Source of the DNA: Chrysaora quinquecirrha
Taxonomy: Eukaryota; Cnidaria; Scyphozoa; Semaeostomeae; Pelagiidae
DNA length: 64,000 nt
Reading direction: 5' to 3'
NCBI GenBank assembly: GCA_014526335.1
Contig: JACTAT010000182.1
Location: 186,001-250,000 of the forward strand
Under the pieces are notes generated by a model that was not told the DNA's origin, did no database searches, and saw only the letters and a program-made list of their open reading frames with translations. Each line of letters starts with the position of its first letter. Position 1 is the first letter of the stretch. Made by a program: the position numbers and the translations under genes. Shown piece after piece: positions 2,881-38,775 of this stretch.

Positions 2881-5113
2881 GATGAGGCATACCTGACTGT
2901 ATTTTCACATATTATTTCAATTTTGCCAACATACCCAACTTTGACCCCCTGTATTTCTCTAGCCCACCCGAAAACATCCGTTTACCTCAGAAATTCTGTT
3001 TGTACACATACTAGCGACCATAAAATGCTGTGTCTCATTAATGTCTGCCTCCGGTGGCACTTACCTCAGTATCTGCCTGGTCTATAAGAGGTTGCAATGG
3101 CAGAGAATGGTAATTGATCTGAAATCTGTAAGCACCATTTCCCTTCCAAGATGCCTGTACAGAGATGATATAAATAAAGTTAAATCTTGCTATTTACATG
3201 GGTTTGGAGATGCAAGTAAGAATGCCTGTTGTGCTGTTGTGTACCTTGTGTATGAGACTGACGAAGGATTCTTTTCTAGGCTTATTTGTGCTAAAACTAG
3301 GGTAGCACCCTTGAAACAGTTGAGCATCTCTAGGCTTGAACTTATGTCAGCACGTATATTGCCTTCGTTAATGGACACTGTATATAATGCTTTGAGTCCT
3401 GAGATGAAAATAGATGATCGGAGGTATTGGTTGGATTGCCCTATACTGGATCAACAATCAAGGGGAATGGAAGCAATTCGTTCAACACAGGGTGAATGAG
3501 ATTCTTAGAGTGTCTAACAAAGAGGACTGGGGCCACTGTGCTGGTGTTTGTAACCCTGCTGACATAGGGTCTAGGGGAGTGACTGGGAGTGTTTTGAAAG
3601 AGAGTAGACTTTGGTGGGAAGGCCCCCATTGGTTATTTTTGTGTGAAGAACATTGGCCTAAAGTATTGCTTCTTTCTAATTCACAGAAAGTGGTAAAGGA
3701 GAGAAAGAAGGCAGCAGTGGTGAATTTGGCAGTAGCTGAGGCAAATTGTGGACAGTCATCTGTTATTGATATAAAGAGATATGGCACGGTGAGTAAAGTT
3801 TTCAGAGTCACTGCTTATACGATTCATTCAGAATTTGAGATCAAGTAAGGATGATAGAATTTATTCCCCATTAAGTGGAGTTGAGATTCTCAGCACAGAA
3901 AAACGATGGATTCAGGAAGTTCAAGCTGAATTGAAAACGAGTCCAAATTATAAAGAATTAAGATTCTAACTTGGTGTTTTTTAAGATAAGGGTATACTGC
4001 TATGCAGAGGGAGATTGAAAAACTCCAATTTAGAACAAGATGCTAAGTACCCAATACTATTACCAAAAGATTGCAGATTTTCAGAACTTGTTTTAGAGGA
4101 TTCCCACCGTCGAGTCGTTCATTTAGGATTAAAATCCTCACTTGCAGAAGTTAGATCTAAGTATTGGATACCTAGGGGTAGACAATTTGTCAAAAAGGTG
4201 TTAGGGAAATGTAAATTTTGGGTTAGAGCACAAGGTAGAACCTTTGCTAACCCGCCCGAAGCTTCCTTACCAACCTTTAGAGTTCAAGAAGTTCCTGCAT
4301 TTACTAATGTGGGGATAGATTTTGCAGGGCCTTTGTACTTTAAGACCGGGTCTGGAGAAATGAACAAGTGTTACATAGTCTTGTATACTTGCTGTACATC
4401 AAGGGCCTTGCACCTAGACCTGGTTGAGGATTTGTCTGGACTGACATTTGTTCGTAGTCTAAGGAGATTCACTGCCCGTAGAGGAACACAACACGGAAGG
4501 TATCTTAAATTCTAGACCTTTAACATGCTTGTATGATGAAGTTGGTTATGAACCCCTCACACCATCTCATTTAATTTTTGGTAGAAAATTGCCTCTTTTA
4601 GCAGGAAAACTTAGAATATGATAATGATTCTATTGATGATGATGCAGCTTCGCAAACTAAAAGATTTTGGTATCTTGTTAAAAAATTAAATCATTTTGCT
4701 TCTCGCTGGAAACAGGAATATCTAATCAATCTCAGAGAATTCCATAGGGGTAAGAAGACATGAAAATCAGGCATACAGAAAGGAGACATCATTCTCATAA
4801 AGACAGACAATGTAAAAAGAAACCAGTGGAAACTCAGACTGGTCGAAGAATTGATTGAAAGGAAAGACGGTGTTATTAGAGGTGCTAAAGTATGTAGCAG
4901 TAATAAAGGTAAGAGAGAAATCTTAAATCAACCCTTACAAAAGCTTAGTCCTCTTGAGCTACAGAATGTGAATGGTGAAGAGGGCTTGAAAGATAGAATG
5001 GAGATGAAAGAAACGAATCTTCGATGTTCCTTGAAGCCCAAACGTGCGGCGGCAATGGACGCACGCTGGAAAACCCGCTTGGCGCTTGACTCAGAGTGAG
5101 TCAAGGAGGGGAG
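2880..5113 (+). pseudogene. Decayed BEL/Pao retrotransposon pol (RNase H, integrase, C-terminal domain)
   Basis: Three plus-strand open segments read as consecutive pieces of BEL/Pao pol. 3041-3499 holds the region after reverse transcriptase and the RNase H start (LHGFGDASKNACCAVVY, then RLICAKTRVAPLK and ISRLELMSARIL). 3414-3848 continues in another frame (INNQGEWKQFVQHRVNEI, NPADIGSRG, LWWEGPHWL). 4015-4515 is the integrase: an HH zinc region whose second Cys pair is damaged (CKFW where the family has CxxC), then VGIDFAGPLYF with the first catalytic Asp. The reading then jumps near 4490 directly to the conserved SRPLTCLYDE / PLTPSHLIFGR segment, so the part carrying the second Asp and the Glu is deleted. 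4620-5099 is the C-terminal DUF5641-like region ending AAAMDARWKTRLALDSE. Several stops and frame changes. It is not functional. No 5' LTR, gag or complete reverse transcriptase is visible in the window. Confidence 0.85.
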
Positions 5114-6836: not shown

Positions 6837-7620
6837 TTATAGCTTTTTTGAAGTGAGATGACACGCTAGAGAAGGGTTTACAGCTTTCTTCTTTCCTATT
6901 TTTGGTGGCACTCGGATAAACAAGCATCTCTGATAATGCCAGAGATAGAGCTGTTGATGTTTTGATTTCATCATTTCCCTGTGCCTTCTGCTTTCCTGTT
7001 GGTATTGTCTTCTCTTAAGATCTCTAAGTCTTCGTAGAATTTTACCAAGTGGTTCTACCCAAGTAATTGACTCCCGCAATCTTCTTCTTTGAATACGAAG
7101 GCCTCTCACTCTTAAGGCGCCCGAAAGCAGCCTCTCTCCCATATTTGGAGATTCTGATTGTAGATCTGCTACTACTACATCGATGTGACCATCCAATAAA
7201 GGTGTAAACTTGTCCCTAATACCTAACTCCCTTCTCCTCTCTCTGAGCATACGCTCTGATATCATGAGCATATCAGAAATCACTTTCCAAGTGAATACAA
7301 GGCTTTTTAGACCCTTCACTTGTTGTGGGTCTACAAAGTGATGTGGTCGCCCTTTCTCGCCAGTGAACTTCTTAGGGCAATGAAAACCTGGTCTTTCTGG
7401 TGGTGAAGATTTGGCCTGACGACTGTATTGGCAAAAAGGGTGATTCAATTAATTACTTTTCCTTTGAAGGCATTCCTGCAAAGACGAGATACCATGTGGA
7501 AAATCGCCAGGCAAAACATAATAATCTAGAATTTCATCAAAAATTGATATTGTTCGGCATATTTCTTCCATGGATGTTTCCAGGTTACAGAATGGCTGCT
7601 CTTATGTCAGGCCTATTTTA
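6837..7620 (-). pseudogene. N-terminal fragment of an integrase-core (rve-type) transposase family
   Basis: The 203-codon minus frame (7448-6837) contains a helix-turn-helix segment (SDMLMISERMLRERRRELGI) followed by a conserved linker region (GERLLSGALRVRGLRIQRRR, then LRESITWVEPLGK). The same order is known from a widespread animal family of integrase-core transposase-like proteins, where it is followed by an LWHIDGNHK motif opening the DDE domain. Here the frame reaches LWHYQR and diverges, so it is frameshifted at the start of the catalytic core and none of the DDE domain follows. Upstream minus sequence to about 7620 (MEEICRTISIFDEILDYYV) looks like the family's N-terminus in another frame. 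It is a truncated copy. Confidence 0.7.
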
Positions 7621-7739
7621 AATAAAGATATTTGGTTGTTGCCGATACTGATAACCGTTCCCATTGTGATAAGAAAAGAATGTGACAAGGCGTAAAGAAC
7701 AATACAACTCCCTTGACCTTAACACTTCGTCGCTAAGAT

Positions 7740-7850
7740 AGCAGGTCGTTTCAGGTCGTTTCAGCCTCGATTTCAAAATTGACAGCTCGTTTCAGGTCGT
7801 TTCAGGTGGTTTTTGCTCGTTTCAGGTCTATTCAGGTTGTTTCACTTTTT
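7740..7850. repeat. Short tandem/dispersed decamer repeats (tcgtttcagg)
   Basis: At least six near-copies of tcgtttcagg occur in about 100 bp (for example gtcgtttcaggtcgtttcag). The spacing is irregular, as in a decayed minisatellite. It lies just upstream of the ISL2EU transposase remnant and might be its subterminal repeat. Confidence 0.6.
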
Positions 7851-7869
7851 ATAAATTAGGGTACAATTT

Positions 7870-9030
7870 AGGTCGGCCATCAGGAGACCCAAGCCATCCT
7901 AATTATATTCCAAATGTATCCCCTTCAAGAAAGAAGATGAACCTAAATCGAAGATGCAGCTGCAAAGATACAAGAGTGCAAAAAAGGAGCAAAATATGAG
8001 ATAAAGATACAACAACTCCTTGTGATTCGGTATTGTCATCTGTGGAGGAAGAAGAACCTATGCAACAGTCATTAACAATGGACTTTATGAGGAGAGAGCA
8101 GATTTGCTTACTAAAATTAGTTGTATTGAGGAACTGGTTTGTAATTCTGTTTATAATTGAGAACAACAGATAAAATCTACAAATACTGCAAGTTTCAAGT
8201 AGCCCATATAAAATGTTTTTAATTTGCTTTATTCCATTTTCAGGTTTTGTTATCAACCTACAAGGGTCATGAGGGACAATGATTACGCTGCCAAATATCT
8301 GACTGGACTGTCATATAAGGTCTTCACAATAATTTCTGATATGCTGATTCCACATTTGAATTTGATGGAGCAAAGCAAACTGCCTGCTGAAAATCAAATT
8401 CTTTTGGTTTTTAAGCGGCTTAGACTAAATCTTTCATTTCAGTTTCTGAGCATGCAAAGAAAGTTGACTCTCAGTACCATCAATGTCATTTTTCAGAACG
8501 TCGTTGATGTAATGTATCAGAATCTCAAATTTTTCATACCTTGGCCGGATAGAAAGAATATATTTCAAACTATTCCTCCAGTTTTAAAGGCAGATTTTCC
8601 ACAACTAACATCTATCATTGATTGCTTTGAAATATTTGTTGAGCGTTCAACTAATCTCAAAGCAAGAGCCCAAGTTTACTCAAATTACATGAAGCATAGC
8701 ACCATAAAATTTTTGATATGTTCTAATCCACTAGGTGCAATCACATCTTTATCTCCGTATGGGGTGGCAGAAGCACTGACAATCAAACTGTACATGATTC
8801 TGGCTTGATAAGCTCAAAGTACCACCACCCTCGGAATCAGATATTGGCAGATAGGGGTTGTACTCTAGAAGATTACTGCTCTATGTAGTGCTGAACTTAT
8901 AATTCCAGCTTTCACAAAAGGAGAAAAACAATTAAGTGCCAAGAAAGATGAAACAACAAGAAAAAATGCAAATTTGCGTATTCAATAGAGGGAGTGATTG
9001 GTAATATGAATAGGCAGTTTGGGATTCTCT
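7870..9030 (+). pseudogene. ISL2EU-type DDE transposase, decayed
   Basis: An upstream segment at 7880-8180 reads GDPSHPNYIPNVSPS, typical of the C-terminal edge of the THAP region in this family, then meets a stop. After an acceptor-like ttccattttcag (about 8243) the main open segment (to 8808) gives LTGLSYKVFTIISDML, RLRLNLSFQFLSMQ, then FIPWPDRKNIFQTIPP and IIDCFEIFVERSTNLKARAQVYSNY, carrying the first catalytic Asp. The frame breaks after LSPYG. Beyond it ILADRGCTLED (second Asp, ~8850), IPAFTKGEKQLSA and EGVIGNMNRQFGIL (catalytic Glu, ~8989) are readable across stops. All three acidic positions survive, but stops and frameshifts make it non-functional. Its convergent neighbour encodes the SWIM/YqaJ/PHD partner expected for ISL2EU elements. 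Confidence 0.8.
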
Positions 9031-29667: not shown

Positions 29668-29911
29668 CACTCGCGCTTTGCAACGTTGCAACAAAGGCGA
29701 CATTCGTCTGAGCATGCGCGAAATTTGCCGGGAAATTTGAGCAACTAAATTATTTTGGTGGGAAACAAATATGGCGGCGTTTTAGGTTTCTACGTGTAAT
29801 AATAGCTAGTTTTATAAAATATATCAAACAGTTTTCTTTAAAACTATCATTCAAACAGTTTTCTTCAAAACTACTTAAATATTTTGTTCTTGTTTACATT
29901 CTCGAGTGAAA

Positions 29912-32900
29912 ATGGTTCGTATTATGGTGTTACTCTTTGTTTTCATTTTTGCAATATTACACGTTGCTGATGCTGGGAAAAGTGACAGGGTTAGAAGCAA
30001 AGAAAAAAATGGCTGCTGCATATGCAAAACCAAGTCAATGAAAAGTACAAAACGTTTTTTGGAGAGCAGCGCATATGAAGAAGAATTTTCTCGTGTTTTT
30101 GGAGTTAGTGGGAGAGCAGGGCAGATTTGTAGTGCATGTGTTTCAGCAATAAGAAGAGCTAGGACCACAGGAAAGAAATATGAACAGGTTAATATCTATA
30201 TTCATTTATAGAAAATATACATTCATATATACTACAATTCAATATTTTTAAATAAGACCTATCAAATTGATTCAAAAGTGACCTCCTAGTCCACTGCATA
30301 TAAAAAAATAGAAGTATATTGGAGTGTTTTTGGAATGTTTCTTACACATTACACATAACTACCATACTGACTAAGGTGAAATATCTTGTGTGCACTTAGA
30401 GCAAGACAAACACATTAATACAAAAAACAAACTGAAAGTATCTACCTAAACATTTTCAATAAAGTAGATGTGTCTTCAAATGCCAAAATTTATTCATTTC
30501 AAATTAAAATTTCTATTTCATCTCCTTCAATCAAGTTTTCCTTTACATACCTAATTCAAATATTTTTTTCAGTATGTTGACAGATTTCATGAAAGGTGCT
30601 TGAATAGTCATGCTGACACACCTCTATCTTCTGAAGCCAGATTTGAAGATACCCAACAGATCCAATGTAGAAGAGCCTTGTCATTTGAAGGTATTTCTTT
30701 GTTTCTATTCAACAAAAAAGATATTATAGAAGCATTTTAGTATTTCACATTTTTATACAGTACATTTTTTGCAGATAATTTTGAACAAAAAACACATTTT
30801 TCATATGATAAGCATTTCAAGTGGTAGCTTGTATAATTTGGTTGGAAATTTGGTGGCTACGCAAAGGAAGCAAGAACTCTATTGAAAGGGTGCTTATTTC
30901 AAAAGTGAAATGAGAATTTAAATAATATTGTCAATTGTCTTTGATATATTAATTGTTGTTTGAAAATTTTATTAACTTGTGTTCATGTTCACCAATAAAA
31001 CATATGAAAATTTATAAATATCCTTACTTTAGATGTAAATCAAGATGATTCAAACAACATTATTGCAAATGAAGCATCAGCCAGTAACAATCAAAGCTCA
31101 TCAATGGAAGAGATAGAAACGGACTTTGGTGTATTCCAGCAGTTACTTGATGGAAATTTACTTGTTCCAGAAAAAGTTCTAGGACAAATAATTAAAGAGA
31201 ATGAAATTTTGGCGAGAAGTATGAATTTTTCTTAGACTTACTTTTAGTCTTTTTTCAAGGCATACTCTCTCATTTAATGGTTTAATAACTCAAAATTTAT
31301 TTGCTTGTTCTGCAGGGACTGACTTCAGAACAGAGCTCCACAAATTAAAGGAAGCAATGGTGATGGCATTCACAAGTCAAGGGCATCAGGCTATATATGA
31401 CCCAGACGAATTTGAAGAATTTTGTTCACGACATGGTCTGAACAGCATATTCAACACTTTGGTATCGGCTGTAAGTACGCCTAGGCAATCGAAGAAAAGG
31501 CTTGAATACAATAGAAAAATTGTTGTTTCTGTTTTGTACCAGCTGTGCTTTGCTATCAGCCAAAGATGCAATTACTTGCAGCGAGATAACACTTTGTTCA
31601 TGGTTGTAAACAGCTTGAATCAGGAAGCAATAAATACTCAACGCTCTCTGGGATCATCGATGTCTTCAAGAACAGGACAGAGAATGTTGCATGATGCAGA
31701 GGTGACATATTCTGAAATAATAAATAATGAAATTCAACAAGCTATTGAAAATGGCTGGTTAATTGTTGCCACTATAGATGACTATACCTCTGTCCATTCA
31801 CACCGACGTCCAAAAGAAAATAAAGCATCTGCAGCAATAAATATGTGCACAATAGTTATAAGTATTTTTAAAATGATACCTGCTGTTCAGTGGCATAGTC
31901 CACTTGAATTGCATAATCCTTATCTGATTGAAGAAAGTCACATCAATCTTCTGCTAGACATAGACCACATGAGGCTTGCCACGTCAACATATGCGACTCT
32001 GATGCCTGAATGGTTGACCGAGTCTTTTTTCGATCCTGCAAAGACAAGATGGAGACTTAATGCACATGAATATTACCAGGCTGATGATGTCCAGCAACTT
32101 CGTTCATTTGATAACTTGTTATTGCTTGAATTTCAAGAACTAAATTTAAAGGAGAAAGGCAGTTTTGAAACAGCCATTGGGTGGATGATGGAATCTAAAC
32201 TTTCTGAGTACCTGGCAAAATATTGCATTCTTCTACCGGGTGATCATCCAGCACAATTCTTTTGTCGTCAACATGTTTATAATAAAGCATTTAATTACAA
32301 TGCAATGCCAACAGCCAGTTCAATAAGGTACAATGAATTGCCAAGATCTATTCACCAAGGGATAGTTCCACTCATGGGGCCACTCCATATTCAGCTTAAT
32401 GCACAAGAGGATCTTATGCAAGTTTACCATCCGATTTTCAAGCATTTGTATGAGGGCATATTTTCTGGTAGTAAGCTTGCAGACTCGCCAAAACCATGGA
32501 GGACAAGCTTGATCTTGGAAATAGTTTATGGGGGTTGGCTTCTTATTAGAGAATCCGTCTTGAAAGCCTTCTGCTTGTTTAAAACAGTCCACTTCAGCAT
32601 GTTAATTACTCTTCTTGACGACTATATGCCACTTTGTTTGTCTATATATGCAGTTACATATAAACTGAACAGATTTCAAGAATTCAAAAGGGCAGTGTTC
32701 AAAGTCTGGGTTATGTTCTTGAACTTTTCAAGGAAAAATTACAATAAAACTCCTCTCATCTGGCTTTCTCTCCTAATGTACTGGAAAACAAAAAACCCTT
32801 TACTTTATGACACTATTGCCAATAACATTTCCGCTTTTGATGAATATAGGGTTGAAAATACACACTCCATTATCAGGGCAAATACAGCAAAAAGTGATAC

Positions 32901-34302
32901 ACCAGATGTGCTAACTAGGAAGGCAAAGGCAATATTTTCATCAAAACGGTGTTTGCATAATTTCAAAAGTATTTTTACTCCACCAAAAACCTTCAGTTTT
33001 TCTCGAGATGCCCTTGAAGGATTGAAGCTTGCAGCTGCCAATATTCTATGCCAAATGTTTGAGTTTGTTGGAGGAGTCAGTAAGGCAAAATCACATGCTC
33101 CAACTATTTTCCATAATGAAAATTCAATTGAACTGAAAATGCTACCTACTGGTTTCCACACTAACCGCAGACCGAATTCCAACTTCTTTTGTGATCAGCC
33201 TGGCTGTTCAAGGAAACATAATTCTGAGGGCTCCTTTGTTTTGCGTGGATGTGGGCACTCTTATCATCAAGACTGCATTTCCAATAACACTTGCAGCATA
33301 TGTAAGCAACATATTGCTAAACGATTGAATGAACTCAAATGTCCAATAAGAGAAGGTTTGATACCAACAGAAAAGAGAAAAGAAAAAAAAGCTCCTACAG
33401 AACAGTGCGATGAAACAGAAAAAGTGAACTATGAAAAAATATACAAAGAGGAAATTCAGGCTAAGGTTAGAGAGCTAAGAAACAAAATAGGAAATATGAC
33501 ACCTCGTTATGATGAGAGGGATGATGAGAGATTTATAAAATTGGCTCAAGTAAAGCACTGCAAAAGATGTACTCATTCTCAAGAACTGCACGAAAAGAAA
33601 GAGAAATATGTTGCATGTCAAAATTGCCCACGTGGTAGGTGCTCTGCAAAGGGAAAAAACTCAAACTGCACTTGTAAGGAGCACAGCAATATCACTCAAT
33701 GTGAGGTCCGAAAACAAGGACCAGTGGTTGAAATTCAAATGGGTGCCTCACAGAAGTCATTGAACACAGATTCTGAACTACATGGTCTGGCAAGCAATGC
33801 CTGCACTTTAATTTCTGCACTTGTTGGTAATGTCTTCCTCAACAACCAGTTACCATTCAAGGAGCCTAAGGATCTTGTTACATTCTTTATAAATGAGATG
33901 AAAGATGGCAATCACATCTATAATACCAATGAGGAAAATATACCGATGTTCTTGAATGCTGATGATGCTGCTAAGCTCATAAAGATCCATACCAAAGGAG
34001 AAATATTTGATGTTACTGATTCAATGTCACTCAGTCAGTATTTAGCACCAAAAATTCACTCAGATTCATCAGCAGCCTTTATCATGATAATTCCATCCAT
34101 CCCTGCAGTTTCTGTTGCTATATGCCAAAAAGGTAACATTTTGTACTTGTTTGACAGCCACTCACATGGTACTGGAGGTGCCATTATTGCATTTTGCGTT
34201 TTAGAATGCATTGATGGATTTACCAAGTACATTAATGATCATGTCATGAAAACATGGAATACACCTCTTGTTGGAAGTAACATTATTCAACTTTGCAAGT
34301 GA
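29912..34302 (+). CDS. SINHCAF/FAM60A-like finger + transposase-like region + RING-like finger + papain-like protease
   Basis: Exons 29912-30187, 30573-30690, 31033-31218 and 31316-34302 join in one frame through GT-AG introns to 1188 aa. Residues 1-21 are hydrophobic (MVRIMVLLFVFIFAILHVAD). Residues 34-76 (GCCICKTKS ... RFLESSAYEEEFSRVFGV ... GQICSACV) match the atypical zinc finger of SINHCAF/FAM60A, a subunit of the SIN3-HDAC corepressor. Residues ~200-780 are an all-alpha/beta region with LIVATIDDYTSVHSHRRP (~340), LMGPLHIQLNAQED and YRVENTHSIIRANT, resembling multicopy transposase-like proteins of invertebrates. Residues ~819-860 form a RING-like finger (CxxxxC, CGHSYHQDC, CSIC), followed by a second Cys-rich cluster (CKRC, CQNC, CTC). 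The C-terminus has ASNACTLISAL (Cys 1023) and LYLFDSHSHG (Asp 1140, His 1142), the Cys and Asp/His motifs of USP/herpes-tegument-type cysteine proteases. No frame lesion. The function is unknown; chromatin binding plus (de)ubiquitination is an inference. Confidence 0.85.
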
Positions 34303-34609
34303 CGTTCAGCTATTTTGAGCCATGTTGTGTTTTGGGCTACTTTTGTGAAAGGTTTCATCATTTGGAAATTATTCTTCATTCCATGTTGCTAATGTTATTT
34401 TAAAATGTTTATCTGATGTTGGAAAACAACCTAGGTACGTTCAATAGCAATTCAGACACATAGGGATACACAGGGAGTCTAATTTAAATACTAACAAATA
34501 ACTATATTTTCTACAATTAGATCACAATTAGATCATTTTAATCGTGAAACAGCTAATCATCATAGGATAGGCCAGGCAAAAATAGGCCTATAGGAGCCAT
34601 CTTTGAATT

Positions 34610-36010
34610 TTGACAGAAACACGTGGAAAATAGACGTGTTGCAAAAACCCTTAATTTCTATAATGTTCTTCACGATGGATTTTTGAACAAATTTGATTTT
34701 TTGACTAATAAGTGATCAATCTTGGGGTTTACTTAAATTTTGTGTGGTATCACCGACTTTATCTTTCTCAAAAATGGCTTTTTAGTTATTGAAGTTTATC
34801 GAAAAAAAATGTCGCATGGATTGGGCCTAAGAAAAGGAACGAAACTGCGTCTGTCAGGAACAACTATAAACTTTACAAAAAATATGCATAGAAGTTAAAA
34901 GGTATACGAGTAAATCAACTTTTACTGGTAGTTACTTGCAAATTATCAATGAACAACAATGTTTTTGAAGACCAGATCACTTTGGCGCGAAAGCCCTTCA
35001 TCAAGGATAGGAGCCATCGTACTCCAACGGCAACACGTGAAAAAGCTGTTGCAAAAACCCTTAATTTCTACAATGTTCTTCACGATGGATTTTTGAACAA
35101 ATTTGATTTTTTGACTAATAAGTGATCAATCTTGGGGTTTACTTAAATTTTGTGTGGTATCACCGACTTTATCTTTCTCAAAAATCGCTTTTTAGTTATT
35201 GAAGTTTATCGAAAAAAATGTCGCATGGATTGGGCCTAAGAAAAGGAACGAAACTGCGTCTGTCAGGAACAACTATAAACTTTACAAAAATATGCATAGA
35301 AGTTAAAAGGTATACGAGTAAATCAACTTTTACTGGTAGTTACTTGCAAATTATCAATGAACAACAATGTTTTTGAAGACCAGATCACTTTGGCGCGAAA
35401 GCCCTTCATCAAGGATAGGAGCCATCGTACTCCAACGGCAACACGTGAAAAAGCTGTTGCAAAAACCCTTAATTCCTACAATGTTCTTCACGATAGATTT
35501 TTGAACAAATTTGATTTTTTGACTAATAAGTGATCAATCTTGGGGTTTACTTAAATTTTGTGTGGTATCACCGACTTTATCTTTCTCAAAAATCGCTTTT
35601 TAGTTATTGAAGTTTATCGAAAAAAATTTCGCATGGATTGGGCCTAAGAAAAGGAACGAAACTGCGTCTGTCAGAACAATTATAAACTTTACAAAAAATA
35701 TGCATAGAAGTTAAAAGGTATACGAGTAAATCAACTTTTACTGGTAGTTACTTGCAAATTATCAATGAACAACAATGTTTTTGAAGACCAGATCACTTTG
35801 GCGCGAAAGCCCTTCATCAAGGATAGGAGCCATCGTACTCCAACGGCAACACGTGAAAAAGCTGTTGCAAAAACCCTTAATTTCTACAAAGTTCTTCACG
35901 ATAGATTTTTGAACAAATTTGATTTTTTTACTATTAAGTGATCAATCTTGTGATTTGATTAACTTTTGTGTGGTATCAGCGATTTTATCGTTCTCAAAAA
36001 TCGCTTTTAG
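34610..36010. repeat. Tandem array, ~408-bp unit, about 3.4 copies
   Basis: The marker gttgcaaaaacccttaat starts at 34638, 35049, 35456 and 35864, giving periods of 411, 407 and 408 bp. Units differ by only a few bases and single-base indels, so the array is recent; the fourth unit diverges after ~35930. Each of the first three units carries tttggcgcgaaa (34981, 35389, 35797). The array begins about 310 bp after the stop of the gene at 29912-34302. Confidence 0.95.
34981..34992. promoter_or_regulatory. Exact E2F consensus TTTGGCGCGAAA (first of three)
   Basis: The 12-mer equals the palindromic E2F consensus TTTSGCGCSAAA and recurs at 35389-35400 and 35797-35808, once in each complete repeat unit. 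A related gcgcgaaa half-site lies at ~29716-29723, upstream of the gene start. Binding is an inference from sequence alone. Confidence 0.5.
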
Positions 36011-36360
36011 TTTTACCAATTTTTAGTTCTGTTAAATTTTTCATTTTATCACCGCTCCCAAGGGCACTCAAAAAACGAGGTTTTTTCCTGCAATTTGGTA
36101 AATGAATACAACTGTTTAGTTATCAACATGAAAAATTAAATAAATATTCACACTTATCTTTAATTTCTTTCACTGATCATTCCTCTGTGAGCATTTAAAT
36201 TTATTGCAGTCAACCATCGTTTCTAGCTTTGAGATGGAAATTTTGAAAAAGAAACTTGACTCATGCGCGCTAATCTAACTGCGCCGTCGGTGCAACGTAT
36301 TCTGCACAGCGGTCAAATCGAATGTCGCCTTTGTTCAACGTTGCAACATAGGCGCAGTTG

Positions 36361-37689: not shown

Positions 37690-38775
37690 ATCTATATAAG
37701 CGTCGTAGTCGATAATATCAGAAATAATGTTGTCTGTAAAACAAGTAAGAAACTTTGGATCTGTGACCAATTGTGTTGACTTCCCAATACTTTCAATTCT
37801 CCACTTGGACTCATTAATGAAGAAAGCAACTCTTTATCATCTTTGTTGACAGATCTTACAGAAATCAATTTTTCTTCTGTAACTGTTTGAAAAGATTGTT
37901 TTGGAGCAGAACAGCCTTCTTCTTTGCCAACACATTTGCACACAATTTTGCAATACAGACAGCAGTCGTGTAAAGCCTGTTGTTTCAAAACGCTTTCTGA
38001 TGCAGCAAAAGAACCGTAAAGGGCCTCTCTGTAACAACAGTCCTTTAACGATGCATAGGCTATAATTTTATCTGTAGCCTTGCCCAACTGCAAACCAGTA
38101 CAATACAAAATCGCCCAAGAATTCATTCTCTCTCTTCCAGCACAACCTATTCCTTGTATATAGTCCTCGATGTCAAGAGGAACACCATAGTGAACAATGT
38201 AGCGAATGTCTCTAAAATCAACACCCATCATTAAAGATGTTGTTGCAACAACTACCTTACAAAAACTATTGCAATGAGACATACCTTCCAGAATCCTACT
38301 TTTTTGTTTCTCAGGAGTCTCTCTGTGATACATGCAAACTTAGGAGTTCTTCATAGAACTCTCTGATGCCATTGGGTGAAATACCAAGTCTCCAACCTCT
38401 TCTTTCAAGTAAGTGAATACTTTTGCTTCTGACTCAATGCTTTGACAGTATACAATGGTCTTTGGAAAATTGCCTCTCTCTGTCCTTAATCCATCAACCA
38501 TGAAGAAGCTTTTTCTTTTTGAAAAATTATAAGGCAACATTTAGCCTGTTGGGACTGACTCTCAACACAAGACACTTTTTCATACACAAAGACTTTATTA
38601 TCCGTCTCTCCGTCTGTTTATCTGCAGTTGCTGTGAGTGCAAGTACAAGTTTACCAGGAACATGGGTTCTAATTATGCCAAGTTTGGAAAATGCAACCCT
38701 GAAAGCTTTTTTAATCTCGCCAAATTTTCTTCCACTTATCTTGCTTGCTTGGTCCTGAACATGTCCCTTGAAAAG
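37690..38775 (-). pseudogene. RecQ-like helicase fragment (motifs III-VI), frameshifted
   Basis: Minus strand from 38770: KFGEIKKAFRVAFSKLGIIR and LVLALTATADKQTERRIIKS (motif III), a stop, then in another frame FPKTIVYCQSIESEAKVFTYL. Then 38333-37692 gives MYHRETPEKQKSRILEGM, KVVVATTSLMMGVDFRDIRY (motif V) and VHYGVPLDIEDYIQGIGCAG (motif VI). RecQ helicases are ATP-driven 3'-5' DNA unwinding enzymes. Here motif VI has Cys where the family has the conserved Arg of QEIGRAGRD, the Walker A/B half is missing, and the frame is broken at ~38525, so it is inactive. A Cys-rich tail (CCLYCKIVCKC) follows, as in the expanded cnidarian RecQ-like family. Confidence 0.8.

Follow-up and report, generated by a model that had tools for sequence, protein, structure and literature searches.

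An element with the structure of a DNA transposon occupies positions 29690-36335 of the window, the whole 64,000-nucleotide stretch of Chrysaora quinquecirrha DNA analysed here (contig C171 of a 328-Mb assembly). The element is bounded by perfect 17-bp terminal inverted repeats (TIRs; AACAAAGGCGACATTCG) and contains a single four-exon gene, open across 1188 amino acids. The gene and repeats noticed at 29668..36360 in the original prediction are therefore both present.

The gene and the domains of its product

The four exons join in frame at predicted GT-AG splice sites and carry no lesion, as had been proposed. Exon 1 (29912..30187, + strand) encodes a signal-like hydrophobic N-terminus (29912-29980) followed by a FAM60A/SINHCAF finger (30002-30160), as judged from the Pfam match, the splice site and hydrophobicity. 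Exons 2 (30573..30690, +) and 3 (31033..31218, +) have counterparts in two other copies, L028 and L031. Exon 4 (31316..34302, +) encodes the transposase core, a RING finger, a second zinc module, a deubiquitinase (DUB)-like domain and the stop. Residues below are numbered within exon 4, and 194 is added to obtain the residue of the product.

The transposase core (31555..32985, +; residues 80-556) has a predicted RNase-H-like fold with conserved D, D and E, and the candidate catalytic triad is D154/D155, D309 and E513. Behind it lies a RING-H2 finger (33190..33303, +) with eight Cys/His ligands (C625, C630, C645, H647, H650, C653, C659 and C662) in C3H2C3 order and a first spacing of C-x4-C. 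The ligand order agrees with the predicted RING-like finger; its Pfam scores fall under the cut-off. A second, unnamed Cys/His-rich module follows (33559..33684, +; C748...H789), with ligands kept in 22-27 of 23-28 lettered rows of the alignment.

The C-terminal domain (33703..34299, +) is predicted to have the papain-like fold of the viral-tegument-like deubiquitinases (VTDs), and it carries their Cys plus Asp-x-His signature as C829 and D946-x-H948, with Ser at x; the protease-like region claimed earlier for this end of the protein is thus found. Alignment position 946 holds D in 9, E in 8 and C in 1 of 18 lettered rows. A BFVD fold search returned no match at E<=0.001, and its best rows were mostly herpesvirus tegument proteins. 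A sister lineage (L038, 3169-3678, - strand; L039) reads SNAS in this domain where the window reads SNAC, and this replacement of the catalytic Cys by Ser suggests that its DUB is inactive.

A 408-bp tandem array (34618..36012; 3.4 copies, 97% matches) was originally described, together with the inverted repeats, as bracketing the gene; the inverted repeats do so (29690/36335), but the array lies inside the element, behind the gene. The sister copy L033 likewise has a tandem array 3' of the coding part (7506-8406, periods 199/399 bp, or about 200 bp), so that such arrays occur in two diverged copies.

Ends, target-site duplications and other copies

The left TIR (29690..29706, +) is the perfect complement of the right TIR (36319..36335, -), and immediately outside them stands a 9-bp target-site duplication, CAACGTTGC, with the same letters on the left (29681..29689) and on the right (36336..36344). 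With at most one mismatch, the TIR word occurs at 66 sites genome-wide (34 on the + and 32 on the - strand), and the same word read backwards, which served as a control, occurs at 8 (4 on each strand). Of the 66 sites, 44 form 22 convergent pairs and the other 22 stand singly. Nineteen of the pairs are spaced at 1.0-4.0 kb, the window pair at 6.6 kb, and two others at 11.7 and 14.4 kb.

Duplications were sought in the flanks of 20 of these pairs plus the window (21 in all, the pair on contig C353 being excluded). Fourteen of the 21, the window counted, have perfect duplications, each exactly 9 bp long; perfect repeats of other lengths (4-8 and 10-14 bp) were absent from all pairs. Shuffling of TIR partners gave 0.695 matches per 21, close to the 14/21 to be expected from ends that meet their own partner by chance. 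Of the remaining pairs, C298 has a duplication matching at 8 of 9 positions and that at C283 appears to be offset by a single base. C290 and C479 share the same flanks, being a single insertion that was duplicated, and lack a target duplication, as do C132, C399 and C467. An 8-bp duplication, hinted at by the palindromic CAACGTTG in the window alone, is ruled out by the length of 9 bp in every one of the 14 perfect cases. On these sequence comparisons the same TIRs appear to delimit about twenty further insertions. The shorter pairs are putative non-autonomous copies, by length alone, and the two long ones (G000:C327:562536-574205, 11.7 kb, with a 9-bp duplication; C353:62947-77362, 14.4 kb) may be further long elements of the same family.

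The target of the window copy forms a perfect 14-bp palindrome, TTGCAACGTTGCAA (29678-29691), and its right flank (36336-36347) is similar to the start of the TIR; the other 20 targets were compared for base counts only.

A genome-wide DNA search gave 29 matches, spread over the window and 18 further regions, all 18 of which were retrieved. The exon order 1-2-3-4 is preserved in L028 and L031, for which no convincing terminal repeats were seen. L033, which has been copied together with its flank as L032, is an independent insertion that starts at the same TIR base and continues into finger and transposase; its right end was not found in the stretches surrounding the two loci. Seven further loci, L023-L027, L029 and L030, each a fragment of exon 4, were excluded as autonomous copies. 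In three of these (L023, L025 and L026), a transposase fragment with the same first base (window position 31217) is embedded in about 4.9 kb that the loci have in common at 98-99%, and it seems that part of the transposase gene was taken up there by a larger repeat.

The open frame, the conserved domains and the single intact copy at hand would also suit a domesticated host gene lying between repeats by chance. This explanation is rejected as highly improbable, because other insertions have the same ends: the exact TIR and the 9-bp duplication are common to them, diverged and decayed sister copies exist at several loci, and the homologue clusters contain up to 198 sequences. Every sequence test run for a cut-and-paste DDE transposon (TIRs, fixed 9-bp duplication, predicted fold) gave a positive answer. 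Based on the TIRs, the 9-bp duplications, the further insertions with the same ends and the open transposase with its DDE triad, the element is very probably a cut-and-paste DNA transposon with an open gene and complete ends, of a DDE lineage outside the Pfam transposase families; the claim of a new autonomous element is well supported by sequence.

Placement of the transposase

The core is predicted to be an RNase-H domain of the P/hAT/RAG type with an inserted helical domain. The element resembles the P element and hAT (Hermes) in this core, in the helical insertion before the last catalytic Glu, in its short TIRs and in a similar duplication length, as well as in having an N-terminal zinc finger. 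It is conceivable, though we doubt it, that the core diverged far within one of the known superfamilies, P, hAT or Mutator, and that only the accessory domains are new. None of 35 members has a match to a Pfam transposase family at E<=0.12 (among the best 25 of the 36 families reaching E<=1, the other 11 being weaker matches to single members), and Foldseek gave E-values of 0.02-0.1. A winged-helix HTH_33 match was seen in one member at 0.06.

The P superfamily shares the predicted core fold, but its transposases carry THAP, for which there was no match, and its target duplication is 8 bp. Mutator duplications are about 9 bp long, which fits, but no MULE family matched at E<=0.12 in the 35 members. 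RAG1 already combines a RING with a DDE core; its RING stands before the core, whereas that of the element stands after it, and RAG1/Transib differs further in duplication length and in that RAG1 is not known to have a DUB. Neither hAT nor BED Pfam domains were found in the 35 members at E<=0.12, and exon 1 of the window gave, besides FAM60A, only a chance-level match to YxzE (0.14). The hAT duplication is usually 8 bp, according to PMC12730594, as against 9 bp in 14 of 14 perfect cases here. At least one tested feature thus failed for each of hAT, P and Mutator, and the element differs from P and hAT also in its added RING and DUB and in having a SINHCAF-type finger in place of THAP or BED.

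The Kyakuja-Dileera-Zisupton (KDZ) transposons are reported from fungi, as is one member of the present family (P0034), and their duplications are described in PMC12730594 as 8 bp (Zisupton, Dileera) or 7 bp (Kyakuja), not 9 bp. A new superfamily is plausible, KDZ being set apart by duplication length only and other Repbase lineages lying outside the sequence comparison. P0034 and L001 (fungal or fungal-like) both end shortly after the RING and start with a different Cys-containing stretch, and FAM60A was not matched in P0034 at E<=0.5. Because of this structure, the core with its RING looks older than the finger and the DUB, as far as two sequences can indicate. L001 is a contig in a bacterial bin and is probably eukaryotic contamination of it. 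A scan of IMG/VR with the family profile gave 77 pattern-matching stretches and no relatives.

The SINHCAF-type finger and its possible role

Exon 1 matches the Pfam FAM60A family at E 4.3e-12 (46.9 bits; cut-off 27) over profile positions 11-62, in agreement with the SINHCAF/FAM60A-type finger of the original prediction; the relatives L033 and L039 score 48.4 and 40.9 bits. The likeness is confined to the N-terminal Cys finger (PF15396 positions about 9-65). The C-terminal FAM60A region, matched in the probable host gene, is not matched in exon 1 or exon 4, and by these profile matches the finger belongs to the FAM60A family but the product is not a SINHCAF protein. Searched with the FAM60A profile, the genome gave 16 matches at E<=0.01: two at C467, one at C2 (to a different part of the profile) and 13 to the finger only, 9 of which exceed the Pfam cut-off. 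C467 is probably the host SINHCAF gene, with finger and C-terminal part (profile 130-204), separate from the element.

Five of the 13 finger-only loci (the window, L031, L032, L033 and L039) lie upstream of a transposase. Three more (C272, C387 and C179), found by the finger alone, are each followed within 6 kb by correctly oriented transposase pieces (lowest tblastn E-values 6e-103, 6e-42 and 2e-74, respectively). Linkage therefore holds at 8 of the 8 loci checked, three of them found without the transposase, which argues that the finger is part of the transposase gene. Two observations weigh against this assignment and would suit an unrelated neighbouring exon, with the transposase starting later: a protein search with product residues 28-200 had no match at E<=1 among 273 candidates, and in two decayed copies exon 1 (76-77% alike) is scarcely more alike than intron 1 (72-74%). 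That alternative is very improbable, being rejected by the three loci found from the finger alone; moreover, the same kind of finger precedes the same transposase in five sequence types, distinguished by eye, and the exon order is retained in L028 and L031. Codon comparison with the two decayed copies gave Ka/Ks values of 0.29 and 0.35 for the core and 0.76 and 0.56 for the finger. Given so small a difference between exon 1 and intron 1, the two copies are poorly informative on whether the finger is constrained; its retention across five diverged types is better evidence. A sequence search of the PDB with exon 1 found no match at E<=1.

BED in hAT and THAP in P are site-specific DNA-binding fingers at the transposase N-terminus. 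The SINHCAF-type finger is placed where these stand, and so its likeliest role is recognition of the TIRs. SINHCAF/FAM60A is a subunit of SIN3-HDAC (PMC6072441), and it had been proposed instead that the finger recruits this complex, with the transposon tying repression to ubiquitin editing. The clear FAM60A match speaks for recruitment, but we consider it improbable: the element matches profile positions 11-62 and not the 130-204 of the probable host gene, the finger has the usual DNA-binding position, and identity between the window and host fingers is 30% across 57 columns (E 5e-4, for one comparison; for C272 and host it is 24%, with E 2e-5). A SINHCAF-type finger alone is insufficient to show recruitment, which therefore does not follow from it, and by analogy DNA binding is the likelier role. 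The element and its three accessory regions stand as originally described; the repression-ubiquitin function proposed for them is possible but not supported by these data, the C-terminal FAM60A region being unmatched.

In the mechanism that we propose, the finger would bind the TIRs, possibly assisted by the second Cys/His module, and the core would cut both ends and insert them with a stagger of 9 bp. Ubiquitin on the transposase itself or on nearby chromatin proteins could be the target of the RING and DUB; most simply, the two would govern how the transposase is ubiquitinated and how long it lasts, the DUB sparing it from proteasomal removal. The short TIR-bounded copies would be mobilised in trans. 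A comparable role, the shielding of transposition proteins from the proteasome, was proposed for Helitron VTDs in PMC9741609. The VTDs of Helentrons are likewise transposon-borne, with a tegument-like papain fold and Cys plus Asp-x-His; that paper places known VTDs mainly in these rolling-circle RepHel elements, whereas the present element is of the DDE cut-and-paste kind with a RING and a SINHCAF finger. Cnidarian VTD genes joined to domains associated with transposons are also mentioned in the paper, and a term search of its main text found neither 'DDE' nor 'hAT'. VTDs in transposons are thus already known, and the new part, within the literature searched, is the combination with the SINHCAF finger: SINHCAF finger, DDE transposase, RING and DUB together were not described there (subscription journals and Repbase being outside its scope).

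A bolder reading, which we hold to be less likely than not, is an unnamed DDE superfamily of animals and fungi, its animal branch having a SINHCAF-type finger, RING and VTD, with SINHCAF itself an early-animal domestication of the transposase's DNA-binding finger. The transposon may instead have taken its finger exon from SINHCAF. PMC6072441 gives the origin of SINHCAF only as early metazoan, and a term search of PMC10027918, on transposon-derived transcription factors, found neither FAM60 nor SINHCAF. If the bolder reading is true, the targeting module of a corepressor began as a transposon end-binding domain. The element itself would unite on one transposase a finger of corepressor type, a RING of E3 type and a deubiquitinase; tegument-like DUBs would extend from rolling-circle to DDE cut-and-paste transposons, and SINHCAF would gain transposon relatives for rooting its origin. 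With a copy that is open and has known ends, the questions of the DUB in transposons and of the origin of SINHCAF become testable.

A signal-peptide-like hydrophobic N-terminus, unexpected for a nuclear transposase, precedes the finger in four finger types (the window, L039, C272 and C387), with sites at 29912-29980 in the window, near 7789 (-) in L039, and in L044 and L050; the probable host SINHCAF has none. Among 638 background ATG frames, those at least as hydrophobic amount to 0.16% for the window, 0% for L039, 3.4% for C272, 2.4% for C387 and 50% for the host gene. The stretch is interrupted by stops or out of frame in L033, L028 and L031.

Elsewhere in the window, a Helicase_C domain, RecQ-like by eye, lies beyond the right end of the element (37695-38339, -), and pieces of a BEL/Pao retrotransposon (Peptidase_A17, Integrase_H2C2) occur with a DDE_Tnp_4 transposase fragment at 2963-4512 and 8212-8805.
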